In this document: piece by piece, positions 27,976 to 57,281 of the stretch | How the letters are laid out: each line of letters opens with the position of its first letter | Numbering within the stretch: the first letter of the stretch is position 1 | Source: Nostoc sp. HK-01 | GTDB taxonomy: Bacteria; Cyanobacteriota; Cyanobacteriia; Cyanobacteriales; Nostocaceae | Assembly: GCA_003990705.1 (NCBI GenBank) | Contig: AP018318.1 | Span: forward strand, 186,001 to 250,000 | Length of the DNA: 64,000 bases | Direction: 5' to 3' | Position numbers and translations under genes: made by a program | The notes under the pieces: generated by a model | Database searches by the model: none | What the model saw: the letters and a program-made list of their open reading frames with translations, nothing else | Told to the model about the DNA's origin: nothing

Positions 27976-30525
27976 ATGAAATCTCGTTATCAAATTAAAA
28001 AGCCTAAAAACTGCATATTTCGCAATACTTTAGTGGTAACAGTATTTTTAGCTAACGGGTTTTTTTTGGTCTCCCCAGGGTTAGCTCAAACTACGCCAAC
28101 CGCAGCTGGTTCAACTATTGACAACCAAGCGACAGCCACCTACGAAGACCCTAATAATCCCAATGTACCAATTAACAGTACTTCTAACACCGTAACTGTT
28201 ACCATAGCGGAAGTAGCGGGGATATCTGTTGTTGCTGGTACACCTGAAGATAGCAACGGTGGAAGTGTCCAAACAGGCGATATCATATATTTTCCTTTTA
28301 TAATCACTAATGTTGGTAACGACCCAACTAAGTTCCAAATTCCCACCCAATCTGGTATTACAGGCCCTGGTACACAAGGCACAATACAATATAGTACCGA
28401 CGGTGGCACAACATGGACAAATGTTCCCAATGGTGGCTTCACTACACCTTCCATCCCTGTCAACGGAACTATACAGGTACGAGTACCAGTCACAGTCAAT
28501 TCCGGTGTAACATCAGGTCAAACTATCAAAGTTACTCTAGGGGAAACTAACCCTGCTGACACCGCAACAAACTCGCCTCGTAGCGGCTCAGTTAATGATG
28601 CTAGAGATATTTATACAGTAGATAATGCAAATGGTACACCGGAAGAAGTTCTAGGTACGCCTGCCAACGGTGTAGTAGAAGGCAGTGCATCCGCCAGCAT
28701 TACCATTAATCCGAAAAATTATTCGTTAGCTACCATCTTCAAAACGCGTGGTACTTATGACAATAAAAATACTTTTGGAGATATAACAGACGATACCATC
28801 AACTACAACTTAAGTTTGCAAGTTAGGTCTACTGACAATACAGGACAAAACATCACTCCTTCAGCTTTAGCTGGTTCTGATGTACCTGGTCTTGCGGGTA
28901 AAAATATTTTAGTTTCCGATGCTATTCCGCCTGGGACACAACTAGCAGTTGCGCCAACTGCTCCCAGTGGATGGACTGTCGTTTATTCCACTACTGCTGT
29001 CAGCACATCAGCAAATGCAGCCACTTGGACAACTACAGCACCTACTTTATCTACAGTCACTCGTGTTGGTTTTATTAAACCCACTACAGATGGTAATCCA
29101 GCCACTTACCTTGCTGCGGCTGATGCACAATTAACTTCATTCTCCATTCAGCTAAAAGTTAAAAATGGAGAGACTCCACCTCTCACCATAGCCAACATCG
29201 CCCAAGTATTTGGTAAAACGCCAGAAACAGATGCGCCTGTGTTAGATGAGTCTGGTGATCAAAATCCCAGTAACTTTAATGGAATTTCCGGTAACATGAC
29301 ACCCCCATCAAACACAGACACGAATGGAGATGGTGTACCAGATCAGTTACCACCCACTGTACCTGATGGTTATATCAATAACCAAACTGATTTAGAAACA
29401 ACGGGAACTGATACTGCTGGTAACAATACTGGTGATAGTAATAACACAACCGCCAACTCTGGCGGTGAAGCCAACGTATTCACACTCGATGCTGTTTTAT
29501 TGCTCAATGGGCCTAACGGTTCTCCTGGAGCAGTAGGGCCGAGTAATAACAATGATGACTTCACTAATAAATCTTCTGATGTTCCTGCTAATACAACTCC
29601 AGGTTCGACATTTGATCCAGACCCTGTGACTTTTACTAACACCATTAAGAATACAGGAAATCAACCAGCCAATATTTCTTTATTACCTACACTACCAGCT
29701 AACCCAAATGACTTGCCTAACGATACAGTTGTGACTATATCTGCTAACAATGGTACAACGTCTGCTACTTATAAATACAATAACGGTGTATTTACGTTTA
29801 TAAGCGGCTCTGGTAAGGTAGGAGGAAACTCAGTTAGTGCCACAAATCCTGTACGCATTGATGGCGTAACATCAAATGGAACGGCTAACTATACTGTCAC
29901 TATTGACTTACCTACAGATACTCCACTTTCCACTGATCCTGGTATTGAACACGGTTTTCCTGTACCAATTACAGCATTTATAGACACTGATGGAGATGGT
30001 TTGGCAGTCGATGAGCGAGCGACAAACATCACAATTAATCGCGTCTACACTGGTTTCTTGCAACTCATCAAACAGTCACGAGTTTTAAAAGGAACTGGCC
30101 CAGCCGTTCAAGGTACTGATGGGACTTTGAGTACAACACCAAAAAAACCAGCACCAGGAAACATTATTGAGTACGTGATTCAGTACAAAAATATTTCTGA
30201 ACAACAGCCTGCGAGTGGTAGCAATAATGTCATTTTGAATGCTTCCCAAGTGGTGATTACAGAAGATGGCACTGTAACTCCGAATAATTGGGCAAAAGAT
30301 AATGATGGCAACGCTGCAATTGATACTAGCCATATTTCTGGATCAGCGCAAGATTCTGGCGGAACAATAACATTCTTTAGTGGTAATCCTGCTACTACTT
30401 CTGCTACTAACACAACTAGCGGTACTACTGTGACTACCGATGTCACTAAATATGTAGACACCGTTAATAGTAATGTTCCTCCTGGTACGACAGGAACCTT
30501 TACCTTTCAACGCAAAGTTAACTAA
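27976..30525 (+). CDS. Large exported DUF11-type surface protein, cluster A
   Basis: This 849-residue protein has a basic N-terminus and a signal peptide (cleavage near GLAQT, residue 36). The mature part is rich in Thr, Asn, Gly and Pro with few charges, typical of stacked Ig-like surface domains. It begins with the DUF11-protein N-terminal pattern STIDNQATATYEDP followed by NSTSNTVTVTI. DUF11-like modules recur (GDIIYFPFIITNVG; PDPVTFTNTIKNTGNQPAN; PGNIIEYVIQYKN). It ends in GTFTFQRKVN, loosely like the C-termini of the other large surface proteins here. Asp-rich loops (DTDGDGLAVDE, DTNGDGVPDQ) probably bind calcium. It heads a run of five genes reaching 39785. Confidence 0.82.
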   Translation: MKSRYQIKKPKNCIFRNTLVVTVFLANGFFLVSPGLAQTTPTAAGSTIDNQATATYEDPNNPNVPINSTSNTVTVTIAEVAGISVVAGTPEDSNGGSVQTGDIIYFPFIITNVGNDPTKFQIPTQSGITGPGTQGTIQYSTDGGTTWTNVPNGGFTTPSIPVNGTIQVRVPVTVNSGVTSGQTIKVTLGETNPADTATNSPRSGSVNDARDIYTVDNANGTPEEVLGTPANGVVEGSASASITINPKNYSLATIFKTRGTYDNKNTFGDITDDTINYNLSLQVRSTDNTGQNITPSALAGSDVPGLAGKNILVSDAIPPGTQLAVAPTAPSGWTVVYSTTAVSTSANAATWTTTAPTLSTVTRVGFIKPTTDGNPATYLAAADAQLTSFSIQLKVKNGETPPLTIANIAQVFGKTPETDAPVLDESGDQNPSNFNGISGNMTPPSNTDTNGDGVPDQLPPTVPDGYINNQTDLETTGTDTAGNNTGDSNNTTANSGGEANVFTLDAVLLLNGPNGSPGAVGPSNNNDDFTNKSSDVPANTTPGSTFDPDPVTFTNTIKNTGNQPANISLLPTLPANPNDLPNDTVVTISANNGTTSATYKYNNGVFTFISGSGKVGGNSVSATNPVRIDGVTSNGTANYTVTIDLPTDTPLSTDPGIEHGFPVPITAFIDTDGDGLAVDERATNITINRVYTGFLQLIKQSRVLKGTGPAVQGTDGTLSTTPKKPAPGNIIEYVIQYKNISEQQPASGSNNVILNASQVVITEDGTVTPNNWAKDNDGNAAIDTSHISGSAQDSGGTITFFSGNPATTSATNTTSGTTVTTDVTKYVDTVNSNVPPGTTGTFTFQRKVN

Positions 30526-30549: not shown

Positions 30550-31104
30550 ATGAAACAAATTTTAATGACGGGAATAGGGGCAAGTTTATTGTTGACTACA
30601 GCCTCATTTATCAGTAATTTACCAGATGCTTGGCAAACTAACAGAGCAGTTGCCCAAAACCCTACAAAACAACAGGCTTTAAAGTTAGTTTTAACAGCAG
30701 AAAAGCAAGTATTAATTAAGGATGAACAAAGCAAGCCAAAAATAACATGGCAAGCTTTGAATGATAAAGCAACTGTCAAACCAGGAGATATATTACGCTA
30801 TACCTTGACTGGTGAAAATACAAGCGATCGCCCGCTCAAAAATTTAAATCTCAATCAACCTATTGCCAAAGGTATGATTTATGTTTTGAAATCAGCTAAT
30901 TTTACTGGTAATGCCAAAATTAGCTACAGCATTGATGGCGGACGCAGTTTTGTAGAAAACCCCACAATTAAAGTTACTTTGACTAACGGCAATATCACAA
31001 CTCAGCCTGCACCGGCCAAGGCTTATACACATATTCGCTTTTATAGCCCAGTAATTGCAGCCAAAACTACGCTCAAAGTCACCTATCAAACGCAGGTACG
31101 TTAA
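30550..31104 (+). CDS. Small exported DUF11-like protein, cluster A
   Basis: This 184-residue protein starts at the ATG of MKQILMTG, with CAGGGTG upstream; an in-frame TTG six codons earlier is less likely. A signal peptide covers residues 1-37. One DUF11-like domain follows: ATVKPGDILRYTLTGENTSD then LNLNQPIAKGMIYV, KISYSIDGGRSF and a final TTLKVTYQTQV strand. It lies 24 bases after the 849-residue gene and is probably a partner or cap for the larger surface proteins. That role is inferred from context. Confidence 0.75.
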   Translation: MKQILMTGIGASLLLTTASFISNLPDAWQTNRAVAQNPTKQQALKLVLTAEKQVLIKDEQSKPKITWQALNDKATVKPGDILRYTLTGENTSDRPLKNLNLNQPIAKGMIYVLKSANFTGNAKISYSIDGGRSFVENPTIKVTLTNGNITTQPAPAKAYTHIRFYSPVIAAKTTLKVTYQTQVR

Positions 31105-31224: not shown

Positions 31225-32751
31225 ATGAAGTTAGTCAGTATTGCAAAAAAGCAAAAACAGATTATTTTTAGTAGTAAATGGCAACATAAATTGTCTAGCA
31301 TTATTGTGGCAATTAGTTTCTTATCTACCAATTTACCTTTCAAAGCAACGGCACAACAAGCAAGTAATAATATTGTTAACCAAGCTGGTTACACTTATAC
31401 AGATTCAAGTAATAATAAGAAATATCAAGGAATTTCTAGTGAACTGCAACTATTAACTGATATTATTATTTCCAGTAGCAAATCAGGCAGAATTTTAGGT
31501 TGTGCTGGCACAACATTGTCTGACTATACAGGTTTCTCAGTAGGTTTATATGAAGCTGACATTACTGATCCAACAGGTACAGAATTAGGCAAAATAGTAT
31601 CTTTAATTCGCACAGAGTTACCGGATGTTCCAAATAATAATCTGCCTGGTGGACAAACCCCAAATATTGAAAATTCTAATCCTTTTTTCTTGAGAAATAG
31701 TCCAGCAGGTGTTTACAATCTGCTGCTTGATCCAAATAGAGGTCAAACTGAGGTTGGTAAAACTTACATTTTGGTAGTCAATCCACCACAAAATTCCAGT
31801 TACCAACAACGGCGAATTAAAATTCAGATTACTGGTGTTGATAGCACTAATAAAAACAATGTTAAATATGTAGCAGCTTCTTTGGATGGAGAACCTTTGA
31901 ATAGTACAGGTGCAACCAGAGTTGAAGACACATTAGTTATGGTTGCGAATGCAGAAGTTAACCAACGTAGTTTATTAGCTTTGGCATTTACAGCTAATTT
32001 ATGTACAGCACAGCAATTACAGATTATTAAAACAGGCGATCGCGCCACGGCGGAACCAGGGGATACAGTTATTTACCGCATATCTGTGAAAAACTTATCT
32101 GATTCTGGTTTAAATAACTTAGTTGTTACTGATCACTTGCCTTTAGGCTTTCATTTCATTCACAAATCTGTGCGCGGTGAGTTGGATGGTCAAGCAGTTA
32201 ACATTACCACAGAGCGCAATGGTAATACAGTTATCTTCCGCACAGATGTGACGATTCCATCTCAAAAAGTGGTGAATATTGCCTACGCTGCCCAACTCAC
32301 ACCTGATGCAGTGCGGGGGACTGGTCGCAATAGTGCGATCGCGCGTGTACTCAGAACTGACAATAACTTAGCTGCCAAGGATGGCCCAGCAACTCACCAA
32401 TTAGTCATTCGTCCTGGAATTGTGGCTGACTGCGGCACAATTATCGGTCGTGTGTTTGAAGATAAAAACTTTGACGGTGAACAGCAAAATGGTGAACCAG
32501 GAATTCCCAATGCCGTAATTTTCTTAGAAAACGGTAATCGCATCACCACAGATCCCAATGGTTTGTTTTCTGTTGCTAATGTTTTGCCAGGAAGCCATAC
32601 AGGAGTACTCGACCTCAGCAGTATTCCTGACTATACCTTAGCTCCCAACCGCAAATTCCGCGAACGCAATACGCAATCTCGCTGGGTGCGTCTAGAACCT
32701 GGCGGCTTAGTCAGAATGAACTTTGCTGTCACCCCCAGCAGGAGTAAATAA
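31225..32751 (+). CDS. Exported DUF11-SdrD-like protein paired with the barrel gene, cluster A
   Basis: This 508-residue protein has a signal peptide (cleavage near residue 43) and an N-terminal NQAGYTYTDSS pattern like the 849-residue protein. A DUF11 domain lies near 270-385 (ATAEPGDTVIYRISVKNLSD...VVTDHLPLGF...RGTGRNSA). The C-terminal SdrD-B-like domain runs from about 400, with a calcium loop DKNFDGEQQNGEPGIPNAVI, and ends RMNFAVTPSRSK. The last 240 residues are closely matched by the cluster B protein at 50470. Its stop lies three bases before the barrel gene, so translation is probably coupled and the two products likely interact. Confidence 0.85.
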   Translation: MKLVSIAKKQKQIIFSSKWQHKLSSIIVAISFLSTNLPFKATAQQASNNIVNQAGYTYTDSSNNKKYQGISSELQLLTDIIISSSKSGRILGCAGTTLSDYTGFSVGLYEADITDPTGTELGKIVSLIRTELPDVPNNNLPGGQTPNIENSNPFFLRNSPAGVYNLLLDPNRGQTEVGKTYILVVNPPQNSSYQQRRIKIQITGVDSTNKNNVKYVAASLDGEPLNSTGATRVEDTLVMVANAEVNQRSLLALAFTANLCTAQQLQIIKTGDRATAEPGDTVIYRISVKNLSDSGLNNLVVTDHLPLGFHFIHKSVRGELDGQAVNITTERNGNTVIFRTDVTIPSQKVVNIAYAAQLTPDAVRGTGRNSAIARVLRTDNNLAAKDGPATHQLVIRPGIVADCGTIIGRVFEDKNFDGEQQNGEPGIPNAVIFLENGNRITTDPNGLFSVANVLPGSHTGVLDLSSIPDYTLAPNRKFRERNTQSRWVRLEPGGLVRMNFAVTPSRSK

Positions 32752-32754
32752 AGT

Positions 32755-35700
32755 ATGAAACCTCAACTACACGGTGTAACTACCTTTAATCTCAGGCTGA
32801 TGGGTGCTGTAGCAGGTGCAATCAGCGTTGTTTTGTATCCGGCTGTTGTTAAAGCCCAAACATTCATTCCGCAAACAGAAAATAGTGTCCAGAATCAGTT
32901 TCCCTCTACTTCTACCTTAGCCGCAGCAGAGCATCAGACTTCTGTGAATACATTTAGAGAAGTTGATGAACTTTCTCAGCCAAATCCTTTGTTACAAGAC
33001 AATCAGATTGATAGTTCCTTGCCAAATATTAACGAACTGACCGCGGTTGAGCCTACTGTCACAACAACCGGCATACAACCATTTCAACCTGCAACTGATA
33101 TTCAAATTCCTAAAAACTTACGTAAAATTGCGGCATCTGTAGACAATCAAAATACAACCATCAAAATTCTTAACCCATCTACTGATAGTGTTGTGGATAT
33201 TCCTGCGGCTAACGTGAGTGTGCAATTTCCTAGTGGTAGTCAGATAGAATTGCGCGTCAATGGCGTATTGGTAGATTCTTCATTAGTTGGACAAACAGAA
33301 ACTGATAGTCAGACCAATTTAGTCACACAGACATGGTATGGTGTCTCACTCCAAGCCGGAGAAAATATCATCTCTGCACAAGAAGTTGGAAAACCAGAAT
33401 CATCTGTAAAAGTAAGGATAATAGTGCCGAGTGCGCCAAAAAAACTCACACTAGAAACAGTAGAAGCTCGTATTCCTGCTGATGGACGTTCAACTGCAAC
33501 TATCCGTGGTGAATTAATAGATGAAAATGGCAATCGCTCTAACCACGATGCTGTTGTGACTTTGATACCGACGGCGGGAGAATTAATCGGGAAGGACTTC
33601 AAACCTGATGAACCAGGATTTCAGGTAGAAGCGAAAGCTGGGGAGTTTACCGCCACATTGCGTTCTGATTTAAAAGCCCAAACAGTCCGTATTCGCGCCG
33701 CAGCCAATGATTTAGAAGCTTTTACCCAACTGCAATTTGAAACAGCCTTGCGTCCCAGTTTATTAACTGGCGTTATCGATGTCCGTTTAGGTGCGAGAGG
33801 TACAGATTATTACAGTAGTTTTCGAGATTTTGTCCGTCCTGACAAAGATACCAGCACTCAATTAGATTTTCACTCAGCGATATTTGCCACAGGTGCAATA
33901 GGCGAATGGTTATTTACAGGTGCATATAACAGTTCCCGGACTCTCAACGAAGATTGTAACTGCGACAACCGTCTATTTAGAAACTACCAATTTAACGAAC
34001 AAAATTATCCTGTTTATGGTGATAGTTCCCGAACTGATGTTGTTGCACCTTCCATTGATAGTGTATTTTTGCGGTTTGAACGTACTTCTAAAACTCCCAA
34101 TGCTGCTCCTGATTATTTGATGTGGGGTGATTATGACACAGAAGAGTTTGCCCGGACATCACAACAATTTACTTCTATCACTCGTCAATTACATGGGTTT
34201 AAAGCCAACTATAACTTTGGGAATCTCCAATTTACAGGCTTATATGGCAATAATCTAGAAGGCTTTCAAAGAGACACCATTGCACCTGATGGTACGAGTG
34301 GTTATTACTTCCTTTCCAGAAGGTTAGTCATCGCTGGTAGTGAAAATGTCTTTCTAGAATTAGAAGAACTAAATCGTCCTGGTACTGTATTGGAGCGTAA
34401 ACAACTCAGTCGCGGCCCAGACTACGAAATTGATTATGATCGCGGTACATTAATTTTTCGTGAACCGATTCTTCGTACAGATATAGATAGTAATGGACAA
34501 GTCTTAGTCCGACGCATTGTAGTGAGCTATCAATATGAAAGCCAAGACTCTGACAGTAATATTTATGCAGGTCGATTACAATATCATTTTTCCCGCGGCT
34601 TGAACCAAGAAAGTTGGTTAGGTGCAACTTTTGTCCAAGAAAATCAAGGAGTGCGAGACTTTCAACTGTATGGTGCAGATGCGCTGATTTCTTTAGGTAG
34701 TAATAGCAGGCTAATTGCTGAATATGCTCATTCCAGCAATGATTCAGAAGTGATTGGTAAAGTCAGTGGTGCGGCTTACCGCTTAGAAGCTGAGGGACAA
34801 ATTAGCAATGCGATTCAAGGACGTGCTTATTATCGATTTGCTGATACAGGCTTTGCCAATAATGCCACCATTAGCTTTGTACCTGGACAAACTCGCTATG
34901 GTGGACAAGTCACAGCGAGACTCTCGCAAACAACCAATTTTCGGGCGCAATATGACCACGAAGATAACTTTGGAATTGCACCCCAGCCTCTAGATACCTT
35001 TGAACAACTATTTACACCACGTTCGGAAGCTATACCAGGGAGTAAAGTTGATAACTCTTTAACAACAATTTCCGCCGGGATTCAACAACGCTTAGGTAAG
35101 GCTACCGTTGACGTTGATTGGATTCATCGCCATCGAGAAGATAGGATTCCAGTGAATGCGTTAACAAGTGATTCTCATCAGATGCGATCGCGTCTGACTT
35201 TTCCCATCGCCAAAAACCTAACCTTCGCTGCCCAAAATGAACTTACTCTCTCTTCCAGTGCAGATACTGTTTACCCAGACCGTACCATCTTGGGTTTGAA
35301 TTGGGCTGCTATTCCTGGTGTGAATATCAGTCTCGCTCAACAGTTTTACAGTAGCGGTCAACAAAGTGGGAATTCTATCACCAGTTTAAGCATCAATGGT
35401 GAACATAAACTCGGCACAGATACAACTTTGACAGCGCGTTACTCAATTTTAGGAGGTGCTAACCAACTCACAACTCAAGGGGCTATTGGCCTAAATAACC
35501 GTTGGGCGATCGCTCCTGGTTTACGGTTGAATCTGGCTTATGAACATGTATTTGGCAACTTCTTCAACCGCACCGGCGCAGGACAACAATACGCCCAACC
35601 TTTTACAGTCGGTCAAGCTGCTTCATCTATTGGGTTTGAGAGTGGCGATAGTTACAGCGCTGGCTTAGAATACAGTGATAACCCTGAGTTTCAAGCCAGT

Positions 35701-36399
35701 GCGCGTTATGAACATAGGACTTCTGCTAGTGGCTCTAATACAGTAATTTCGGCAGCAGCCACAGGCAAAATTTCGCCAGCACTGACGGCTTTAGCACGTT
35801 ATCAACAGGCAAACTCAGCTAATCAAAAACTTACAGGTTTAGGTGATACGGTGAACCTGAAATTGGGTTTAGCTTACCGTGACCCCAGCAATGATAAATT
35901 TAATGCTTTGCTGCGGTATGAATACCGAGAAAATCCAGCGGTGATTCCTGACACGATTTTGTTAGGTAGTGGTACAGGCTCTCAAGACCATACTTTTGCT
36001 CTAGAAACCATCTATGCACCCAACTGGCAATGGGAATTTTACGGTAAATATGCTTTGCGTAACAGCACATCTTACCTAGCCAACGATTTAGTAGGCACTA
36101 GTACCGTTAACTTGGGGCAATTGAGAGCTACATACCGCTTGGGATACAAGATGGATTTAGTAGGAGAGGCGCGTTGGATAGGGCAAGGTAATTATAGTGA
36201 GACAGGCTTTGTTGTCGAAACTGGTTACTACTTATCACCTAACCTGCGTTTAGCTGCTGGATATGCTTTTGGGAGAGTTGATGACCGAGATTTTTCCGGT
36301 GTGCGTTCTGCTGGTGGCCCTTATTTGGGTTTAACGTTGAAACTCAACGAATTATTTGAAGGTTTTGGACAGCAGAAAATCCCGCCACCACAGCGTTAG
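32755..36399 (+). CDS. Predicted outer-membrane beta-barrel with Ig-like domains, cluster A
   Basis: This 1214-residue protein has a signal peptide (cleavage after VVKA, residue 34) and a long Ser/Pro/Gln linker to about 125. Two Ig-like domains follow: one near 128-225, and one near 235-330 opening ARIPADGRSTATI with the invasin/Big-1 style GEFTATLRSDL. From about 335 the chain is a series of amphipathic strands with aromatic girdles and turns (GKVSGAAYRLEAEGQIS, NLRLAAGYAFGRVDDRDF), as in large outer-membrane barrels. The last strand (PYLGLTLKLNELF) precedes a short Pro-rich tail. I recognise no known barrel family. Its paralogue is at 51392. Confidence 0.8.
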   Translation: MKPQLHGVTTFNLRLMGAVAGAISVVLYPAVVKAQTFIPQTENSVQNQFPSTSTLAAAEHQTSVNTFREVDELSQPNPLLQDNQIDSSLPNINELTAVEPTVTTTGIQPFQPATDIQIPKNLRKIAASVDNQNTTIKILNPSTDSVVDIPAANVSVQFPSGSQIELRVNGVLVDSSLVGQTETDSQTNLVTQTWYGVSLQAGENIISAQEVGKPESSVKVRIIVPSAPKKLTLETVEARIPADGRSTATIRGELIDENGNRSNHDAVVTLIPTAGELIGKDFKPDEPGFQVEAKAGEFTATLRSDLKAQTVRIRAAANDLEAFTQLQFETALRPSLLTGVIDVRLGARGTDYYSSFRDFVRPDKDTSTQLDFHSAIFATGAIGEWLFTGAYNSSRTLNEDCNCDNRLFRNYQFNEQNYPVYGDSSRTDVVAPSIDSVFLRFERTSKTPNAAPDYLMWGDYDTEEFARTSQQFTSITRQLHGFKANYNFGNLQFTGLYGNNLEGFQRDTIAPDGTSGYYFLSRRLVIAGSENVFLELEELNRPGTVLERKQLSRGPDYEIDYDRGTLIFREPILRTDIDSNGQVLVRRIVVSYQYESQDSDSNIYAGRLQYHFSRGLNQESWLGATFVQENQGVRDFQLYGADALISLGSNSRLIAEYAHSSNDSEVIGKVSGAAYRLEAEGQISNAIQGRAYYRFADTGFANNATISFVPGQTRYGGQVTARLSQTTNFRAQYDHEDNFGIAPQPLDTFEQLFTPRSEAIPGSKVDNSLTTISAGIQQRLGKATVDVDWIHRHREDRIPVNALTSDSHQMRSRLTFPIAKNLTFAAQNELTLSSSADTVYPDRTILGLNWAAIPGVNISLAQQFYSSGQQSGNSITSLSINGEHKLGTDTTLTARYSILGGANQLTTQGAIGLNNRWAIAPGLRLNLAYEHVFGNFFNRTGAGQQYAQPFTVGQAASSIGFESGDSYSAGLEYSDNPEFQASARYEHRTSASGSNTVISAAATGKISPALTALARYQQANSANQKLTGLGDTVNLKLGLAYRDPSNDKFNALLRYEYRENPAVIPDTILLGSGTGSQDHTFALETIYAPNWQWEFYGKYALRNSTSYLANDLVGTSTVNLGQLRATYRLGYKMDLVGEARWIGQGNYSETGFVVETGYYLSPNLRLAAGYAFGRVDDRDFSGVRSAGGPYLGLTLKLNELFEGFGQQKIPPPQR

Positions 36400-36581: not shown

Positions 36582-39500
36582 ATGTATTTACTGTACAGAC
36601 GAAAATGCTATCAGAGATTATTCAACAGTTTAGGATTATCACTATTAGCCCTGAGTGTTTGCTCGCAAACTGTCCGAGCCGAAGGAAGCCGCACACTTTA
36701 TCCTAGTGGAGCTACTGGTAATCGTGCTAACATTGAATGGCGTAATAGTACTTATGGTAATTTAGTACAGCGTCGTACCTTACTCAAAGTCTATGCACAG
36801 GCTGGTGAATATATTCTCATGGGGTCTTCGGCGGTCAAAGTTAATAGTGGCAATATTCGGGTGTTTAATCCTGGTGCTGTGACCGGTTCAGTTGGTAACG
36901 AAACAATTCCTACTTCCGCAGATTTTAGCTGTGCCGCCCAAACAGGAACAAACACAGGTAAAATTACCAGTCGGATTCTAGAGTTAGCCGGGCCACGTTC
37001 TGCTAATGGTATGGGTAACACCAGTGGCTACATACCTTGTGTTTATCAAGCGCCAACAACTGGCGTTTACACTATCGTTTTTTCTGGCCCATCAGGAGAA
37101 AACTCTAACAACGAAACAGCCTCCACGGGTGACATTGAGTTAACTAGTGCCGACAATTTTAATAGTAAGCAAACTACCAGTGTTGCAGCTTGGGATGTCA
37201 CAGTCCGTAGCAGTGCAAGCTCAACAACAGATATCAACGGCAGGTTATTCACTTACTATTTTGCCTTTTTTACTGGTGATAACGGTCGATATCTCAATTT
37301 TCCCGTTTATCCAGTCACGACAGATGGCTACCAATATGAAATCAAGCTCAGAGGTACAGACCCGAATGGATTCATTCTTTACGGCAACCAAGTAGGATTT
37401 TATGATAGCGATGGTAAGACACCCCTCTATCATGATGTTCTGGCCAAAGATAATACCCTGAGTCCCGTAGAAGCGGGTACTAGCTTATCTCGTCCACAAT
37501 ATGCCACATTTTTGAATCCTTTAGATTCTACAGTACTTTCATCTATTGATCGCTACAGACCAGATGGCACCTTAGATGGCACTGGTGTTCCTCTTAGCCC
37601 TATTCCACCCACTGTCAACAGTTTAAATTTTATAGGTACAGCCAGTGGAAATACAAGTTCTTTAGGTACAGGCGGTAATTTTACTTTTAACACCAACATC
37701 ACAGGTAACTACGAAATCGTTATTAGTAGAGATGGCTCAGATTTTGACCCCACTAACAGCCAAAACCGTGTGCTGAGAGGTGTGATGAACACATCCGGCC
37801 TACAGTCTGTTAGTTGGAATGGTAAAGATAATAGCGGTGATAATTTCCCAGTAGGTACTAATTATCAAGTCCGCGTCAAAGTTCATGCAGGTGAATACCA
37901 CTTTCCTTTACTGGATGCAGAGAATAATTTTTCGGGTGGGCCGACCATTACAATGCTGAACAGCAGTAATCCCTTGGGAAATACCACTGTATTTTATGAT
38001 GACCGCGGATATACAACCATTGGTGGGACAAATGTTGGTGTTCCAGGTAGTGTACTTTGTGGTGTTGGTCAACCAAGCCCAGCTTTTAGCAACCCGATTT
38101 CTGGGTTTAAGAGCAGTGACAATGACCGGAAATTTGGTCAGTTTGGTAATAATGGTAACACCAATGCAAAATGTACTGGTTCTTTTGGAGATAGTAAAGG
38201 ACTGGATTTATGGACTTTTTATCCCAGTAATACGGAAACAACACCATTAAATATTATTAATTTTGGTACAACTATCTCAGGCACTTTATATCAAGATAGC
38301 GATCGCGGAGATGATTTTGATCCTGGTGAACCAACTTTACCTGCTGGAATTAATGTCAAACTAATCAAAGCTAGTGATAACTCTGTTGTGACGGTGACTA
38401 GCACAAAAGCAGATGGTACTTACGGCTTTACTGGTGTGGTAGATGGTAGTTATAAAATTCAAGTTGATACCACCAATAGCAACATTCCTGTGGGGTTTTC
38501 TTTGGGTACACCTTATGAACTAGCAGTTACCGTCTCTGGAAGTGCGATAACCAATCAAAACTTCGGCTTTGATGTTTATAAAGTCTCGCCTCAAGCCGGC
38601 AAAATTATTATTAATGAAGTGCTATATAACGAAACAGGCACAGGGAATATGGCTAGTAATAACGATGAGTTTATCGAACTTTATAATGCTTCTTCCTCGG
38701 CTGTTGACTTGAGTGGTGTAAAATTAGCCGATGGCAATCTGATTGCTAACAGTGTTGAAACGGCAGCAAATAGCTTTAATTACACATTCCCCAATGGGAC
38801 AACTCTACAACCAGGACAATACGCCGTTATTTGGATAGGTTCTACTCAAACCAATAACCAAGCCCCAGACGCAGCTTTTCAAGCTTGGTTAGGATTTTCG
38901 ACTCGACTGACTAACGGTGGTGACGATGTCTGGTTGTACGATAGCCAAAATCAAATTATTGATTATGTTGCTTATGGTTCTGGTAATGCAATCAGCACAC
39001 CTCCGCCTAGTTCTCTCAATATTTGGGACATTACTTATCAATCTTCCTTATCTGGGGCTAATGATGCTCAGTCGATTAGCTTAACCCGAAATGGTAATGA
39101 TACTAACACCAGTGCTTGTTGGGAAGCAACGACTAGTGGTAACGCCAGCAGTAGGTGTCCCAGCTATCTACCAACTAGAGATACGGATAATGTAGGTACT
39201 AGAGTCACCAGCGTGGGTGTTAATAATAATGGTAGTCCCAAGGTACTGCTAGTGAAACGCATTACCCGCATTAATAGTGACGATTTAAACGATAGTGTAG
39301 ATGGTGCTGGTACTGATGATAATGATTCTAAATGGCCGAGTGGTTACTTGCGAGGCAAGATAAATGCTACTGGTGTCAAGCCAGGAGATGAGGTGGAGTA
39401 CACTATTTATTTTCTCTCTAACGGTAATAGTAGTGTTACTAATGTAAAATTCTGTGATTTAGTTCCAAGAAATACTACTTTTATTCCTTCAGCTTTTAAT

Positions 39501-39785
39501 GGTCAAACTCCTAATGATGGTGTTGCAGGTGGAAACCAAGGAATTGCAATGGCTATTGGTTCTACTACACCAACTGTTTATTTTAGTAATGCAGTAGACT
39601 CCGATCGCGGAGCTTTTTACCCCACTAATGATTCATCTACTCCTGCAAGTTGTGGTAGTAATACAAATGGGGCTGTAGCAGTCAATGTGACAAATTCTAG
39701 TCTAACTAGCTTACCTGCGGCGACTGGACAAGGCACACCTACTAATTCTTATGGTTTTATTAGGTTCCGTGTCAAAATAAACTAA
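36582..39785 (+). CDS. Exported surface protein with SdrD-like, lamin-tail and DUF11 modules, cluster A
   Basis: This 1067-residue protein has a signal peptide cleaved after VRA (about residue 33). It contains a FlgD-type Ig motif near 410 (GLQSVSWNGKDNSGDNFPVG) and an SdrD-B-like module near 565-660 (ISGTLYQDSDRGDDFDPGEP). A lamin-tail-like domain runs about 670-860 (IIINEVLYNETG, DEFIELYNASSSAVDLSGVK, GQYAVIW). The C-terminal DUF11-type module follows (GDEVEYTIYFLSNGN...KFCDLVP) and ends YGFIRFRVKIN. That ending recurs in the cluster B protein at 57282, which points to a common sorting or anchoring domain. It lies 182 bases after the barrel gene. Confidence 0.82.
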   Translation: MYLLYRRKCYQRLFNSLGLSLLALSVCSQTVRAEGSRTLYPSGATGNRANIEWRNSTYGNLVQRRTLLKVYAQAGEYILMGSSAVKVNSGNIRVFNPGAVTGSVGNETIPTSADFSCAAQTGTNTGKITSRILELAGPRSANGMGNTSGYIPCVYQAPTTGVYTIVFSGPSGENSNNETASTGDIELTSADNFNSKQTTSVAAWDVTVRSSASSTTDINGRLFTYYFAFFTGDNGRYLNFPVYPVTTDGYQYEIKLRGTDPNGFILYGNQVGFYDSDGKTPLYHDVLAKDNTLSPVEAGTSLSRPQYATFLNPLDSTVLSSIDRYRPDGTLDGTGVPLSPIPPTVNSLNFIGTASGNTSSLGTGGNFTFNTNITGNYEIVISRDGSDFDPTNSQNRVLRGVMNTSGLQSVSWNGKDNSGDNFPVGTNYQVRVKVHAGEYHFPLLDAENNFSGGPTITMLNSSNPLGNTTVFYDDRGYTTIGGTNVGVPGSVLCGVGQPSPAFSNPISGFKSSDNDRKFGQFGNNGNTNAKCTGSFGDSKGLDLWTFYPSNTETTPLNIINFGTTISGTLYQDSDRGDDFDPGEPTLPAGINVKLIKASDNSVVTVTSTKADGTYGFTGVVDGSYKIQVDTTNSNIPVGFSLGTPYELAVTVSGSAITNQNFGFDVYKVSPQAGKIIINEVLYNETGTGNMASNNDEFIELYNASSSAVDLSGVKLADGNLIANSVETAANSFNYTFPNGTTLQPGQYAVIWIGSTQTNNQAPDAAFQAWLGFSTRLTNGGDDVWLYDSQNQIIDYVAYGSGNAISTPPPSSLNIWDITYQSSLSGANDAQSISLTRNGNDTNTSACWEATTSGNASSRCPSYLPTRDTDNVGTRVTSVGVNNNGSPKVLLVKRITRINSDDLNDSVDGAGTDDNDSKWPSGYLRGKINATGVKPGDEVEYTIYFLSNGNSSVTNVKFCDLVPRNTTFIPSAFNGQTPNDGVAGGNQGIAMAIGSTTPTVYFSNAVDSDRGAFYPTNDSSTPASCGSNTNGAVAVNVTNSSLTSLPAATGQGTPTNSYGFIRFRVKIN

Positions 39786-45744: not shown

Positions 45745-45865
45745 CGGTAGCGGGGCGTTTAGCCCGTGCTGAGTGCTGAATAACAATAACAATTATAATT
45801 CTTCCCCTGCTCCCCCTGCTTCACTCTGTCCGCTGTCACCTGTCCTCTGTTCCCTTCTTCTCTAT

Positions 45866-46777
45866 ATGAAACCCGAACTCGCATCTGATCTCTGGGAATC
45901 ACTTTGGCAAGAATATCAAGCCAGAGTCAATTATGCCCAAATCTACCAAAACATGATTAGGGAGGCGGGTGGAACCGTCGCCAACGACCATATTGCTTTT
46001 CGGTCTTTGCGTTTAGTAGTCGATAGTCCTCAAGGTAAAATTAACTTAGGTATCAACCACTTAGCACAAATAGCCGAAGTCTTGGGTTACGAACCTGCGG
46101 GGGAACATACATTTGCAGCCACCCATCTTTACGCGCGTCATTATCGCCATCCTCAGCAAGCAGAATTCGATTTACCCAAACTATTTATTAGTGAATTAAT
46201 TGTTGATGAATTACCGGATACTATTGCGAAATTAATCTATCAAACAGTATCCACAATTTCCGCAGAAGTTCTTCCTGTTTTGACACCTGTTTTACTAGAT
46301 GAGAATAATTTTGCCAGCATCATCCAACAATTAAAGCAAACCTTCACTCGGCCTTGGCAAATTCCTCGACGTTCCGTTTTAGAAGAAGTGAATAAAATTA
46401 CCCAATATGGCGCTTGGGTGTTACTGCATGGTTACGCCGTCAATCACTTCACAGGCTACATTAACCGCCAAAATACTCCTGTATATCCTGATATAGATAC
46501 TACTGCTGAAGCTTTGGCGAATTTGGGTGTACCGATGAAAGCCGAAATTGAAGGTAATGTTACTTGTGGTTTACGCCAAACTGCAACTCAAGCGGTCACA
46601 GAAATGGTAGCTGTGCTAGATGACAGCAGTCATACAGAAATTCAAATTCCCTGGACTTACGCTTATTATGAACTCGCCCAGCGTTACATCATAGAAATTG
46701 AGCCTGGAAAGCCAGCACTTTTTGAGGCTTTTTTAGGTAAAAATGCCCAACAATTATTTGAAATGACTCGACGTTAA
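45866..46777 (+). CDS. 2-oxoadipate dioxygenase/decarboxylase (HglS, DUF1338)
   Basis: This 303-residue protein starts at MKPELASD. An upstream extension encodes a poly-Asn and Pro/Leu stretch derived from an intergenic repeat and is rejected. HglS uses Fe(II) and oxygen to convert 2-oxoadipate to 2-hydroxyglutarate in lysine breakdown. The likely metal ligands are visible: His in ANDHIAFRSL, His in LLHGYAVNHFTGY and Glu in the C-terminal RYIIEIEPG strand. Arg in AFRSL is a candidate for the substrate carboxylate. Adjacency to an aminotransferase supports a short amino-acid degradation route. Confidence 0.88.
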   Translation: MKPELASDLWESLWQEYQARVNYAQIYQNMIREAGGTVANDHIAFRSLRLVVDSPQGKINLGINHLAQIAEVLGYEPAGEHTFAATHLYARHYRHPQQAEFDLPKLFISELIVDELPDTIAKLIYQTVSTISAEVLPVLTPVLLDENNFASIIQQLKQTFTRPWQIPRRSVLEEVNKITQYGAWVLLHGYAVNHFTGYINRQNTPVYPDIDTTAEALANLGVPMKAEIEGNVTCGLRQTATQAVTEMVAVLDDSSHTEIQIPWTYAYYELAQRYIIEIEPGKPALFEAFLGKNAQQLFEMTRR

Positions 46778-50469: not shown

Positions 50470-51390
50470 ATGAAGTTGGTACAAGACTGGAAGCAAAATT
50501 ATCTTTTCTTGCTTCTGTTGCTTCCTGGAATTTTTTCTGTTGGCATTTCAGCCGTAATTGCTGATGAAACTACTAATACAGCCGTGTTGGGAGGCGATAA
50601 TATTCAGCCTGTTACTTCTAATACTGTGTTTTTTACTAGAAGTGCAACTGCATTAGAGATTGTCAAAACGGCCGATCGCATCGCCGTCGAACCAGGTGAT
50701 ACTGTTGTTTATCGGCTGGCTATCCGCAACACTGGTAACTCTCCCGCCAGCAATATTACTCTGACTGATACTCTCCCCCTCGGCTTGAATTTCGAGACGC
50801 GATCGCTGCAAGTCTCTTTAACCAGCAGTAACACTACCACCCCTGTAACTGTATCAAATAGCCAAGATAACCGCACAGTAACCATTAACTACGCTGGTAC
50901 TATCCCTGCACAGGGAACGATGAATGTAGCCTATGCAGTCACAGTCACACCCGATGCAGTACGCGGAACAGGCAAAAACTTAGCCGTCGCCGCCGCAGGT
51001 AATATCCGCAGTAACACAGCCAGTCATTTACTAAAAATTCGTCCTGGTATCATCTCCGATTGTGCAACTTTAATTGGACGAGTCTTTGTTGATAAAAACT
51101 TTGACGGCGAACAACAACCAGGCGAACCAGGCATACCCAACGCCGTAATTTATATGGATGACGGAAATCGTATCCTTACCGATGCCAACGGAATGTTCTC
51201 TCTAGCCAATGTGATTGCTGGTAATCGGACTGGAACTTTAGACTTAACCAGCCTACCCGGATATAGTCTCGCACCCAACCTCTACAACATTGAAAAAAAT
51301 AGCCAATCGCGCCTCGTCCGACTCGCACCCAGAAGTATGGGACGGATGAATTTTGCAGTCACACCAGCATCAGGGGAGGCACGTAAGTAA
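50470..51390 (+). CDS. Exported DUF11-SdrD-like protein paired with the barrel gene, cluster B
   Basis: This 306-residue protein has a signal peptide cleaved near residue 32. It has one DUF11 domain (about 65-190: AVEPGDTVVYRLAIRNTGNS, TLTDTLPLGLNF, TPDAVRGTGKN). The SdrD-B-like domain (about 200-300) has the calcium loop DKNFDGEQQPGEPGIPNAVI and the ending RMNFAVTPAS. It is a shorter paralogue of the protein at 31225, lacking that protein's N-terminal 200 residues. Its stop is one base before the barrel gene start, the same coupling as in cluster A, which supports a two-component unit. Confidence 0.85.
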   Translation: MKLVQDWKQNYLFLLLLLPGIFSVGISAVIADETTNTAVLGGDNIQPVTSNTVFFTRSATALEIVKTADRIAVEPGDTVVYRLAIRNTGNSPASNITLTDTLPLGLNFETRSLQVSLTSSNTTTPVTVSNSQDNRTVTINYAGTIPAQGTMNVAYAVTVTPDAVRGTGKNLAVAAAGNIRSNTASHLLKIRPGIISDCATLIGRVFVDKNFDGEQQPGEPGIPNAVIYMDDGNRILTDANGMFSLANVIAGNRTGTLDLTSLPGYSLAPNLYNIEKNSQSRLVRLAPRSMGRMNFAVTPASGEARK

Positions 51391-51391
51391 G

Positions 51392-54300
51392 ATGACGCAG
51401 ATTAGTGCCAGAAGAACTGTATTAACCGTTTGTAGTGCATTTCCAATTCTCCCGGTTGCGAGTGCTGTTGCACAAACACCCCCGCAAACTCAACAAAAAG
51501 TTGAATCTCCCAATTTACCAGAGTTAATTGCACCTGTAGAAGATGATATCGAAGCTGTTTTCTCCCCACCAAGACCAAGCCAACCTGATAAATTAGTCGC
51601 TTTAGATCAGATTGAATCTTTCACGTCTATAGAGACAGCAGAAAACGAGCAGGTGAAGATTTCCTCAAATCAGATAGACTCTTTCACTTCTGGAGAGAAA
51701 ACCGAAAACAAACAGACACCAGAAAAAGCAGAAGCACCTATTTCCTCCGAAATCCGTATTATCACGCCAGTTGCAGGTGTGACTACTGCCAAAACTACTA
51801 ACTTGGGAGTTCAATATCACCCTAATAACCAAGTAACGGTGACATTGAATGGTAAACCCATTGATGCAGCTATCTCTCAATACTTGCATAAAGACGAAGC
51901 ACAACAGTTAAACACCTTAATTTGGTATAACGTGCCATTAAATAAAGGTGAAAATACAATCATTGCTCAAGATGCTGATGGTAAATCAACCAGTGTGAAA
52001 GTCACGGTTGAAGAGGTGCAGAAAAAAATTGCGATCGCACCCATCCAAGAACCCAGAATCCCCGCCGATGGACGTTCCACCATCACCTTAGAAGGTAAAA
52101 TTACTGACGAAAAAGGCGAAATTATTACCGAAGATATTCCTGTCACCTTAACAGCTAGTGCAGGTCAATTTGTGGGTGCAGACCAAGATAAAGATGCACC
52201 AGGGTTTCAGGTACTTGCGCGTAAAGGTGAGTTTACGGCCACACTGCAAGCAGGTTTAATTGCTCAAAACGTGAAAATTCGGGCGGCTATTAATCAAGAT
52301 GCAGAACTCGAAGCTTATACCAATGTAGAATTTATTACTAACTTGCGCCCTTCCTTAACCACAGGTAGCATCAACGTCAGGATTGGCGCAGGTGGTACGG
52401 ATTATCGAGGTAGTTTCCGCGACTATCTCAACCCTAATAAAATCGGTCGGACTGATGTAGATATAGATGCAGCCGTCTTCGCCACGGGTAAAGTTGGAGA
52501 TTGGCTATTTACAGGCGCATTCAATAGCAAACGTCCACTAAATCAAGACTGCAACGGAGATAATCGCCTGTTTGGTGGTATCCAATCTTGTGAAAAAGAC
52601 TATCCCGTATATGGCGATAGTTCTAGCTTTACTAACACTGCGCCTTCTACAGATAGTGTGTATGCTCGCATTGAACGTACACCAGACATCCCAGGCGCAG
52701 AATCAGACTATTTTATGTGGGGTGACTACAATACTGAAGAGTTTGCTAGATCATCCCAGTTATATACAGCGACTACTAGACAACTGCACGGCTTCAAAGG
52801 TAATTACAACTTTGGTAACCTGCAACTAACAGCCTTATACGCCAACAATATTCAAGGCTTCCAACGCGATACAATTACCCCCAACGGAACCAGTGGTTAC
52901 TACTTCCTCTCCCGCCGCTTAGTTATTCCCGGTAGTGAAAACGTCTTTATTGAAGGTGAAGAAATCAATCGTCCCGGTACAGTCTTGGAACGTAAAGCTT
53001 TATCTCGTGGTTCCGACTATGAAATAGATTACGATCGCGGTACATTATTATTCCGTCGCCCCATTGTCGCCACAGAATTAAACCCCTTTGGTAAAACTTT
53101 AGTACGCCGCATTGTTGTTACCTATCAAAACGACGCGGGAGAAGACAGCAAACTTTACGCCGGACGACTGCAATATAACCTGAGAAATTCCGACACCGTA
53201 AATAGTCCCAACGGACATCCATTTATTGGTGCAAGTTACCTCAAAGAAGACCAAGGACAGCAAGATTTTGAACTATACGGATTTGATTTCTTTGCACCTT
53301 TAGGCAATTCTGGGCAAATTATTGGGGAATATGCCCACTCTCGTCATAATACCCTCGCCTTTGGTAATGTCAATGGTTCTGCGTACCGTTTAGAAGCCAT
53401 TGGTAATCTTGGTAAAAACTTCCAAGGACAAGCTTACTACCGTTCAGTTAGCGAAAACTTTGCTAACAACGCCACTTGGAGTTTTACACCGGGACAAACT
53501 CGCTACGGCGCATCTCTCATTGGGAAATTAGGTCAAACCACTAGCTTTAACTTAGGATACGATCGCGAAGATAATTTCGGTATCGCCCCAGCCGAACGCA
53601 CCCAATTAGTTGACTTATTCAATCCCCAACCGCAACCCGCACCAGGAAGCAAAATTGATAATTCCCTTACCACCTTGCGTGCAGGTATCCAACAAAAAAT
53701 CGGTCAATCTGATTTAAGTCTTGAATACGTCAACCGTTCGCGGGAAGACCGAATTACTAACAAGTTCAACGGTAACGCCAGCCAGTTAGTCTCCCGTCTT
53801 GACGTTCCTTTATCTGAATCACTAACATTTCGCGCTCAAAACGAACTTAATTTAGGTAATAGCGACCAACTCTATCCCAACCGCACGACTTTCGGCTTAG
53901 ATTGGGCATTGTATCCCGGCGTAAGTATGCGACTAGCACACCAATTCTTTGAAGGTGGCTTACTACAAGGTAATAGCATCACCAGCCTAGATACGATTGT
54001 TGAACACAAATTTTCTCAAGATACCACCGTTAGAGGTCGTTACTCAATTTTAGGCGGTGCTGATGGGATGACCGACCAAGGTTCCATAGCACTAAATCAC
54101 GGTATCCACCTCGCACCAGGATTGAAATTAAGTTTGGGTTACGAACACATATTCAAAGATATTTTTGGTGACACAGCCACAGGTATCAAGTTTGCTCAAC
54201 CATATTCAGTCGGACAAAGTGCTTCCTCGTTAGGTTTGTTTGCGGGTGATGTTTACAGCATCGGACTAGATTACACTGATAATCCCAACTTCCAAGCCAA

Positions 54301-55045
54301 CACCAGGTTAGAACATCGTAGTGGCAACGAAGGAAATCATACAGTAATTTCCGCAGCAGCCTCTGGTAGACTTTCCCCAGCTTTAACTGCGGCAGTTCGC
54401 TATCAACAAGCAGGTGGCGCAAATCAACTATTGCAAGGGCTTGGAGATACTGCAAATCTGCGTGTCGGGTTAGCCTACCGTGACCCCAACGACGATAAAT
54501 TCAATGCTTTGTTGGGGTATGAATATCGCCAAAACCCCGCTACTACACCCGATACCTTATTAGCTGGTAGTGGTAACGGTTCCATTGACCATATTTTCTC
54601 TGCCGAAGCTATTTATGCACCCAACTGGCAATGGGAATTGTATGGTAAATACGCCTTCCGCAGCAGTTCTACTTCCCTATCCGAAGATTTTACCAACCAT
54701 AGCAGCGTTCATTTAGCGCAATTACGCACAACTTATCAATTAGGCTACCGCACAGACTTAGCCGTAGAAGGACGTTGGTTAGGTCAACCAGAACAAGGTT
54801 TTAACGAATTTGGTTTAGCTGTTGAAGGTGGGTATCATTTAACACCAGATTTACGAATTGGTGTCGGTTACGCCTTTGGAAGTGCAGATGACCGTGATTT
54901 TAGCGGTTATCGCTCCGCAGGCGGCCCCTATTTAAACATCAGCTTTAAACTCAACGAGCTTTTTGGTGGTTTCGGTAGGCAAAAAGTAGTACCACCACAA
55001 CAGCAAGAGTCAGTAGTTCAACCAGTAGCCTTAGAGCCGAAGTGA
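51392..55045 (+). CDS. Predicted outer-membrane beta-barrel with Ig-like domains, cluster B
   Basis: This protein has 1217 residues from MTQISARRTV; the frame extends 13 codons into the previous gene. It is a paralogue of the 1214-residue protein at 32755 over its whole length. It has a signal peptide (cleavage near AVAQT), a Pro/Gln/Glu linker, an Ig-like domain (QVTVTLNGKPIDAA...NTIIAQDADG), a second Ig-like domain from RIPADGRSTITLEGKI, then TGSINVRIGAGGTDYRGSF opening the barrel. Shared barrel blocks include ITRQLHGFK-type TTRQLHGFKGNYNFGN, GTSGYYFLSRRLV and DYEIDYDRGTL. The last strand (PYLNISFKLNELF) is followed by a Gln/Pro tail. It presumably sits in the outer membrane and anchors or exports its DUF11 partner. 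Confidence 0.8.
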   Translation: MTQISARRTVLTVCSAFPILPVASAVAQTPPQTQQKVESPNLPELIAPVEDDIEAVFSPPRPSQPDKLVALDQIESFTSIETAENEQVKISSNQIDSFTSGEKTENKQTPEKAEAPISSEIRIITPVAGVTTAKTTNLGVQYHPNNQVTVTLNGKPIDAAISQYLHKDEAQQLNTLIWYNVPLNKGENTIIAQDADGKSTSVKVTVEEVQKKIAIAPIQEPRIPADGRSTITLEGKITDEKGEIITEDIPVTLTASAGQFVGADQDKDAPGFQVLARKGEFTATLQAGLIAQNVKIRAAINQDAELEAYTNVEFITNLRPSLTTGSINVRIGAGGTDYRGSFRDYLNPNKIGRTDVDIDAAVFATGKVGDWLFTGAFNSKRPLNQDCNGDNRLFGGIQSCEKDYPVYGDSSSFTNTAPSTDSVYARIERTPDIPGAESDYFMWGDYNTEEFARSSQLYTATTRQLHGFKGNYNFGNLQLTALYANNIQGFQRDTITPNGTSGYYFLSRRLVIPGSENVFIEGEEINRPGTVLERKALSRGSDYEIDYDRGTLLFRRPIVATELNPFGKTLVRRIVVTYQNDAGEDSKLYAGRLQYNLRNSDTVNSPNGHPFIGASYLKEDQGQQDFELYGFDFFAPLGNSGQIIGEYAHSRHNTLAFGNVNGSAYRLEAIGNLGKNFQGQAYYRSVSENFANNATWSFTPGQTRYGASLIGKLGQTTSFNLGYDREDNFGIAPAERTQLVDLFNPQPQPAPGSKIDNSLTTLRAGIQQKIGQSDLSLEYVNRSREDRITNKFNGNASQLVSRLDVPLSESLTFRAQNELNLGNSDQLYPNRTTFGLDWALYPGVSMRLAHQFFEGGLLQGNSITSLDTIVEHKFSQDTTVRGRYSILGGADGMTDQGSIALNHGIHLAPGLKLSLGYEHIFKDIFGDTATGIKFAQPYSVGQSASSLGLFAGDVYSIGLDYTDNPNFQANTRLEHRSGNEGNHTVISAAASGRLSPALTAAVRYQQAGGANQLLQGLGDTANLRVGLAYRDPNDDKFNALLGYEYRQNPATTPDTLLAGSGNGSIDHIFSAEAIYAPNWQWELYGKYAFRSSSTSLSEDFTNHSSVHLAQLRTTYQLGYRTDLAVEGRWLGQPEQGFNEFGLAVEGGYHLTPDLRIGVGYAFGSADDRDFSGYRSAGGPYLNISFKLNELFGGFGRQKVVPPQQQESVVQPVALEPK

Positions 55046-55053
55046 GGAAAATA

Positions 55054-57219: not shown

Positions 57220-57281
57220 CTCTCATTTCTCTGTGATCTCTGTGCCTCTGTGGTTCGTATTTCTTAGTTTATTTATTCAAA

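Follow-up and report, generated by a model that had tools for sequence, protein, structure and literature searches.

A DUF11-SdrD protein and its very large predicted barrel partner in Nostoc sp. HK-01, probably part of a surface-fiber system

The 64,000-nucleotide stretch of Nostoc sp. HK-01 DNA analyzed here, hereafter the window (GenBank assembly GCA_003990705.1, contig AP018318.1, positions 186,001 to 250,000 of the forward strand), carries two copies of a gene pair in which a protein with DUF11 and SdrD_B domains, termed the base, directly precedes a protein with immunoglobulin (Ig)-like domains and a very large predicted outer-membrane barrel. The original prediction, made from the sequence alone, took the pair for a two-gene unit of obligate partners and possibly a new surface-anchoring or export system. 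We find that this view is partly supported: the pair itself stands but its true extent is a cassette of four to five genes, and the pair probably anchors or builds a surface fiber.

The pair and its cassettes in Nostoc and beyond

Both reading frames of the first pair, base A and barrel A, are open at their predicted positions and lie 3 bases apart. The second pair was likewise confirmed, with 1 base between the stop of base B and ATG 51392 of barrel B; a listed TTG start at 51353 would overlap base B and this ATG was taken instead. The barrels are 53% identical over 1200 columns, the bases 52% identical over 249 columns, and these are the only two such barrels in the whole genome (7.52 Mb, 8 contigs). 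At E≤0.001 the genome holds four DUF11 matches, three of them above the cut-off and all four within the two clusters. Judged by the barrel, the closest relatives are found in Nostoc, Aulosira and Fortiea. The surrounding genes follow two orders, type A with shaft, small subunit, base, barrel and large subunit, and type B, which spans 50470-59918 in the window, with base, barrel, an OmpA/beta-helix protein whose gene overlaps barrel B by 4 base pairs (bp), and a large subunit. The features, with lengths in amino acids (aa), are as follows.

27976..30525, + strand: shaft subunit, 849 aa, with signal peptide, donor-like hairpin, DUF7925 and C-terminus ..FTFQRKVN, interpreted as a DUF11-like domain that is incomplete
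about 28096-28215, + strand: N-terminal donor-like hairpin of the shaft
30550..31104, + strand: small subunit, 184 aa from ATG 30550, with signal peptide and a single DUF11-like domain
31225..32751, + strand: base A, the barrel partner, 508 aa, with signal peptide, hairpin, complete DUF11, and SdrD_B toward the C-terminal end
about 31354-31458, + strand: N-terminal donor-like hairpin of base A
32755..36399, + strand: barrel A, 1214 aa, with signal peptide, Ig-like domains (about 33142-33744) and predicted barrel (about 33763-36345)
34264..34485, + strand: plug-like insert, barrel A residues about 504-577, from AlphaFold2 (AF2) secondary structure and a cross-phylum alignment
36582..39785, + strand: large subunit A, 1067 aa, with LTD and SdrD_B domains
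about 39312-39782, + strand: C-terminal region of large subunit A, ending ..FIRFRVKIN, read as an incomplete DUF11
50470..51390, + strand: base B, 306 aa, with DUF11, and SdrD_B below cut-off
51392..55045, + strand: barrel B, 1217 aa from ATG 51392
55042..57219, + strand: beta-helix and OmpA-like protein (Pfam OmpA 56.2 bits, Beta_helix 44.8 bits)
57282..59918, + strand: large subunit B, 878 aa, with one complete DUF11
about 59493-59912, + strand: C-terminal region of large subunit B, ending ..FVRFRVRVD, read as an incomplete DUF11

A scan of GTDB contigs confirmed a barrel relative in 353 stretches, from which 80 loci were kept, all cyanobacterial by title. At 74 of them the barrel has a DUF11 partner upstream, and the remaining 6 have less than 800 bp of upstream DNA. 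The distance between partner and barrel is -4, a stop/start overlap, in 65 of the 74 loci; eight more fall between -23 and +4, and one (L090) has 1137 bases; another locus, L023, has 369 bases between the two genes. With the partner upstream in 74 of 80 loci and a 4-bp overlap in 65 of 74, the pairing is not chance. In a phylum-wide draw the barrel was present in 43 of 386 cyanobacterial genomes, with the partner at 29 of the 30 loci given, window genome included, and a distance of -4 at 25; the thirtieth locus (L165) proved to have a 200-aa base once more upstream DNA was read. Loci L001-L030 partly overlap later ones and were kept out of their counts.

The cassette is conserved along with the pair. 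All 72 loci with at least 6.5 kb of upstream DNA have the order shaft, small subunit, base, barrel, and of the 64 loci with 8 kb downstream, 55 carry a same-strand large subunit after the barrel and 13 an OmpA protein. The same five genes are found on a Synechococcus plasmid. Eight loci of type B (L165-L172) all have base, barrel and large subunit, seven also have the OmpA gene, and some show further 4-bp overlaps. When large subunit A was used as a query, only the C-terminal ~156 residues of large subunit B matched (42% identity), as if the large subunits carried differing heads upon one common joining domain.

Outside the cyanobacteria, a tblastn search of 72,556 plasmid records gave 55 matching records, 18 from Deinococcus, 12 from Thermus and the remainder mostly from Proteobacteria. 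We read 15 non-cyanobacterial loci (L141-L147, L149-L155 and L157) and recognized a DUF11 or SdrD_B partner at 14 by similarity, Pfam or annotation. At the fifteenth, in Croceibacterium (L149), the window bases gave no tblastn match, and the upstream gene, annotated as OmpA family, has a DUF11-like start by eye only. Partner and barrel overlap by 4 bp in Paracoccus, Pelagibacterium, Nitratireductor, Deinococcus ficus and Thermus thermophilus HB27, and the partner lies upstream by 1 base in Deinococcus QL22, 13 in Loktanella, 14 in Croceibacterium, 18 in Roseivivax, 72 in Eleftheria and 301 in Devosia. One short annotated open reading frame (ORF) separates the two in Deinococcus radiodurans. 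In Vibrio the barrel is preceded, at a distance of 68 bases, by an open frame whose end is SdrD-like, and followed by a protein that looks OmpA-like by eye. As read, the D. ficus order is small subunit, shaft, base, barrel and a beta-helix large subunit. On plasmid pTT27 of T. thermophilus HB27 (L157) the pair, TT_RS10775/TT_RS10780, is close to a type I-C CRISPR-Cas cluster.

Partner and barrel are fused in two proteobacteria, in Acinetobacter as a 2008-aa protein with DUF11 and SdrD_B ahead of the barrel, and in Pacificitalea as a 2032-aa protein with SdrD_B (Pfam), DUF11 (custom hidden Markov model) and barrel. A search with the fused Acinetobacter form found 842 proteins at E≤0.001, and the 120 of these that were listed all have DUF11 and SdrD_B among their precomputed domains. 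Upstream of the fused gene on the Acinetobacter haemolyticus plasmid (L141, 909-3112) there are several short ORFs with DUF11/NEW3 names that look as if they were a broken shaft gene. Alphaproteobacterial partners can be large, with 1859 aa in Nitratireductor, 1907 aa in Pelagibacterium and 6107 aa in Roseivivax (L156, 3496-21819), where 44 DUF7507 and 17 DUF11 stretches, of families that overlap, run ahead of the barrel. The Roseivivax partner should lie outside the cell, since a chain of this length is too long for a folded state in the periplasm. Near-universal adjacency, 4-bp coupling and these natural fusions strongly support the obligate partnership that was predicted from two pairs, and the pair is broadly conserved in cyanobacteria, Deinococcus, Thermus and Proteobacteria.

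Other genes border the window cassettes. A PLP (pyridoxal phosphate)-dependent enzyme gene (PALP; 26178-27482, - strand) stands immediately upstream of cassette A and is present at 46 of the 89 loci searched (80 cyanobacterial and 9 plasmid), so the chromosomal site is often kept. Between the two cassettes, at 44434-46777, are a Class III aminotransferase gene and then a 2-oxoadipate dioxygenase/decarboxylase-like gene (HGLS), and a NACHT/NB-ARC-type STAND ATPase gene (59919-61385, - strand) immediately follows cassette B.

The barrel protein

The layout of Ig-like domains followed by a barrel was borne out. Residues 229-325 of barrel A give weak Ig matches to Invasin_D3, Big_1 and GH2_C5, all under the Pfam cut-off, and its C-terminal ~850 residues have no Pfam match. 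The AF2 model shows Ig-like domains and then about 39 strand elements that reach the C-terminus, a number counted by hand from the DSSP list of the model with the plug-like insert excluded. The barrel model is of medium confidence (pTM, the predicted template modeling score, 0.55), and barrel and plug are predictions. The insert carries the pattern GYYFLS..GSENV..DYEIDYDRG, which is kept across phyla and is the clearest signature of the cross-phylum alignment.

The only family with some claim on the barrel is DUF2490, a Pfam family of unknown function; no other Pfam, NCBIfam or solved-structure sequence family fits. DUF2490 matches near the C-terminal end of barrel B with 34.6 bits against a cut-off of 29.8, though no single stretch passes alone, and is carried by 23 of the 120 listed homologs (hand count), one of which, P0088, also has the porin model PF13609. 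The same Pfam scan found no DUF2490 in barrel A. No known receptor family matches the window barrels, and among the listed homologs the porin model appears in P0088 alone. By sequence, the PDB gave no match for barrel A, profile A1, the fused Acinetobacter protein or base A. The matches of profile A2 (E 0.005-0.28) were confined to barrels of the OmpA/OprF/TodX type and an Ig domain of a galactosidase, which we regard as generic likeness. A structural search with the barrel model returned FimD ushers and Deinococcus SlpA among its best matches, with ordinary porins also present. No PHROG family fits base A or barrel A, and barrel A is unmatched in 50,697 phage records, so a phage origin was set aside.

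We compared the barrel with the known systems. As the original prediction had it, the layout is unlike that of TpsB, autotransporter or TonB receptor proteins: no curated model of these or of ushers fits the window barrels. The resemblance to type V secretion lies in an adjacent or fused surface protein with a C-terminal barrel and in the weak Invasin_D3/Big_1 Ig domain. However, the window barrels have no POTRA, TpsB, autotransporter or inverse-autotransporter barrel model and are much larger, and the fused Acinetobacter and Pacificitalea proteins lack a classical autotransporter barrel model too. Inverse autotransporters of the intimin/invasin kind place the barrel N-terminal to the Ig domains, while here the Ig region (229-325) precedes the barrel. 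SprA of the type 9 system is a very large single-chain barrel and is among the Foldseek matches (6h3i, 6h3j and 8gl6), but with TM-scores of 0.15-0.17 (query) and 7-8% identity, and our profiles gave no SprA sequence match. A possible chaperone-usher likeness lies in the plug-like insert at 504-577 and FimD among the best structural matches to a model whose pTM is only 0.55. The usher barrel has 24 strands, as against about 39 strand elements here, and with hmmscan at E≤0.01 we found no usher model in either window barrel. Scans of nine cassette proteins from the window turned up no model of a PapD-like periplasmic chaperone.

DUF11 domains with missing and spare hairpins

The DUF11 crystal structure contains a Lys-Asn isopeptide bond with the Asn near the end of the domain, and SdrD_B and DUF7925 are predicted isopeptide families (PMC12617251). 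DUF11 is matched in base A with 45.4 bits and in base B with 49.3 bits (Pfam cut-off 24.6), SdrD_B in base A with 27.5 bits, slightly under the cut-off of 29.7, and DUF7925 in the shaft with 217 bits. By position, the isopeptide residues are Lys269/Asp303/Asn369 in base A and Lys66/Asp100/Asn170 in base B; a loose and ambiguous pattern count finds all three in 16 of 76 bases.

We built a custom DUF11 profile (102 instances, 123 positions) in which the Asn hairpin falls in the last third. In 28 of 75 small-subunit orthologs the DUF11 match extends to the C-terminus of the protein, and there it stops at profile position 77 (27 proteins) or 76 (1 protein); a complete DUF11 including the Asn strand was not found at the C-terminus of any of these 28. 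The same test found no match reaching the C-terminus in 76 bases. Complete internal DUF11 domains extend to positions 98-122. Of ten subunits of the small, shaft or large kind read beyond the window, nine have a last DUF11 match that breaks off at 51-89, and the tenth has none. Large subunit A matches only positions 9-56 of 114 in the Pfam DUF11 profile, with a score below cut-off. The AF2 model of the small subunit (pLDDT 92.1, pTM 0.82) matches RrgB D2 at 187-307, ending before Asn318, and among the 50 structural matches listed its identity is highest, at 22%, to the CLIPPER structure 9ifr. The two PDB matches of profile A3 of the small subunit, multicystatin (E 0.0034) and a tRNA synthetase (E 0.21), were judged coincidental. 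For the conserved tails ..FQRKVN, ..RFRVKIN and ..YQTQVR we considered a sorting signal at the C-terminus of secreted proteins, but they seem to fit better as the last remaining strand of a truncated DUF11.

A candidate for the segment that these ends lack is present elsewhere in the cassette. The donor motif [ILVFM].N.A...[YF], sought in the first 110 residues, occurs in 73 of 75 shafts and 73 of 76 bases, and elsewhere in 5 of 466 other ORFs (3.64 expected), 0 of 75 small subunits, 0 of 84 barrels, 0 of 21 OmpA proteins and 2 of 70 large subunits. The N-terminal hairpin motif of base B is not matched by this pattern. By the same pattern the large subunits L085 17102-21184 and L049 6932-10783 start with a donor-type hairpin and the other 68 do not. 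A shorter form of the motif is near the N-terminus in all 4 other shafts and in 6 of the 9 other bases, and was not found there in the Thermus, Pelagibacterium and Nitratireductor bases.

In a chimera test on the 57 loci, out of 81, that had the full gene set and both motifs, a C-terminus was joined to an N-terminus from the same locus and DUF11 was rescored. Small subunits gained a median of 14.5 bits from the shaft N-terminus (more than 3 bits in 56 of 57 loci) and 6.7 bits from the base N-terminus (54 of 57), against controls that exceeded 3 bits in 2 (barrel), 2 (large subunit), 4 (shuffled) and 8 (internal shaft) of 57. Shaft C-termini gained 12.1 bits from the shaft N-terminus (56 of 57) and 4.7 bits from the base N-terminus (34 of 57). 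Large subunits passed with the shaft N-terminus in 36 of 57 loci and with the base N-terminus in 4. Pfam's own models show a weaker effect in the same direction for the small subunits of the window and of D. ficus. The complementary ends thus appear clear for small subunit and shaft and weaker for the large subunit. What is new here is that the small subunit, and apparently also the shaft and large subunit, end in a DUF11 without its last, Asn-bearing hairpin, while shafts and bases start with such a hairpin. Asp is kept in 70 of 70 large subunits, with their Lys in fewer than 85%, and Lys in 75 of 75 shafts; in the small subunits of the window family the Asp looks lost by eye. For a covalent lock to form, Lys and Asp must both be retained.

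Several observations weigh against this scheme. By the test applied to the small subunits, the DUF11 match reaches the C-terminus in only a single one of the 75 shafts, at position 98, and in none of the 70 large subunits, and with Pfam models the shaft C-terminus shows no chimera effect and DUF11 is unmatched there. Further, the bases of Deinococcus QL22 (L142) and D. ficus (L155) end in a partial DUF11 behind SdrD_B, at positions 77 and 88, which is unlike the cyanobacterial bases and not predicted by hairpin donation.

A surface-fiber system and its alternatives

Pairing, coupling, fusion, cassette order and complementary ends are seen at the level of sequence, the ends less clearly for the large subunit. 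Spare and missing hairpins within one cassette, beside a predicted plugged barrel that is coupled or fused to a spare-hairpin subunit, fit a fiber. On balance we lean toward the view that the pair is the cell-bound core of a surface-fiber system whose subunits are joined by hairpin donation and whose base is held in the plugged barrel. After passage via Sec to the periplasm, the barrel protein would form a plugged barrel of very large size in the outer membrane, with the Ig-like domains facing the periplasm. The base, co-translated with the barrel, would be held to it by the SdrD_B region at its C-terminal end (in species with the fused form, covalently) and is perhaps exported through the plugged barrel. 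Subunits would end in a DUF11 (CLIPPER, isopeptide-type) Ig domain without its last hairpin, shaft and base would start with one, and each subunit's hairpin would close the domain of its neighbor, giving a fiber in the order large or small subunit (tip), shaft or shafts, base and barrel. In type B the OmpA protein may tie the assembly to peptidoglycan. We infer export through the barrel, head-to-tail joining or polymerization, and any covalent Lys-Asn cross-link.

More tentatively, and with appreciable doubt, we hypothesize a new bacterial fiber-assembly system of at least three phyla in which a plugged outer-membrane barrel with some 36-38 strands exports and holds fibers, split DUF11 domains are completed by hairpin donation that can become covalent where Lys and Asp are kept, in the manner of SpyTag/SpyCatcher, and the giant alphaproteobacterial partners represent the fused form. 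Our confidence in both proposals was lowered slightly because of the partial DUF11 of the Deinococcus bases and the missing C-terminal matches in shaft and large subunits.

Another explanation, which we consider rather unlikely, is that the barrel only anchors the DUF11/SdrD base, making an adhesin of autotransporter-like or two-partner kind, with the other proteins acting as separate adhesins that use another export route and pack their hairpins within their own chains. The Roseivivax, Nitratireductor and Pelagibacterium loci, where a large DUF11 partner accompanies the barrel and the stretches read contain neither a shaft nor a small gene, agree with it, and the nearby OmpA-like proteins are consistent with anchoring. 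It does not account for the shaft and small genes ordered beside the barrel at every one of the 72 cyanobacterial loci, nor for missing and spare hairpins falling largely in complementary sets of proteins. It would seem improbable that the barrel is instead a TonB-type or porin-like nutrient receptor whose DUF11-SdrD partner captures ligands at the surface, similar to SusCD. Several public records name the barrel 'TonB-dependent receptor', and porins appear among the structural matches and in the domains of P0088, but scans of the window barrels and of four remote barrel proteins found no TonB receptor or plug Pfam model, the partners are Ig stalks of up to 6107 aa, and the recurring same-strand genes encode subunits and OmpA. 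Most improbable is an S-layer or porin-like envelope scaffold like Deinococcus SlpA/SDBC, which carries an SLH domain along with its barrel, with base and OmpA proteins tying the layers: our Pfam matches include no SLH domain, identity is 12-13%, and presence in 43 of 386 cyanobacterial genomes would be odd for a main scaffold.

The favored fiber with hairpin donation recalls donor-strand complementation in chaperone-usher pili, with an incomplete Ig fold and a complementary N-terminal segment, best seen for small subunit and shaft and at the sequence level only. Here, though, the donor would be a hairpin of a DUF11 isopeptide-type domain, and the base would remain on the barrel, to which it is fused in some species. 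In the Saci_0406 threads of archaea, donor strands link the subunits and an intermolecular isopeptide bond has been proposed (PMC9715654), but these organisms have no outer membrane and the bond is a different one, from an N-terminal Asp to Asn. CLIPPER (DUF11) fibrillar adhesins share the families DUF11, SdrD_B and DUF7925, and the available portion of that survey (PMC12617251) deals with whole domains and intramolecular bonds, with no 'barrel' in its text and no split terminal domains found there.

A literature search, whose coverage excludes most subscription journals, found no title or abstract opening that describes the pair. We regard the proposed system as new because its barrel fits no curated system, the cassette extends over three phyla and no description was found in that search; the suggested new surface-anchoring or export system remains a reading of sequence and of a medium-confidence model. 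In the records seen, the proteins are annotated as 'hypothetical', 'DUF11', 'SdrD B-like', 'OmpA family' or 'TonB-dependent receptor'. If our reading is true, these genes would encode a surface-assembly route unrelated in sequence to the type V, chaperone-usher and type 9 systems and present in the model organisms Thermus thermophilus HB27, Deinococcus radiodurans and Nostoc. It would also assign a function to the orphan DUF11/SdrD proteins found in Gram-negative bacteria, open one of the largest single-chain barrels to study, and make natural fiber building by split isopeptide domains testable.

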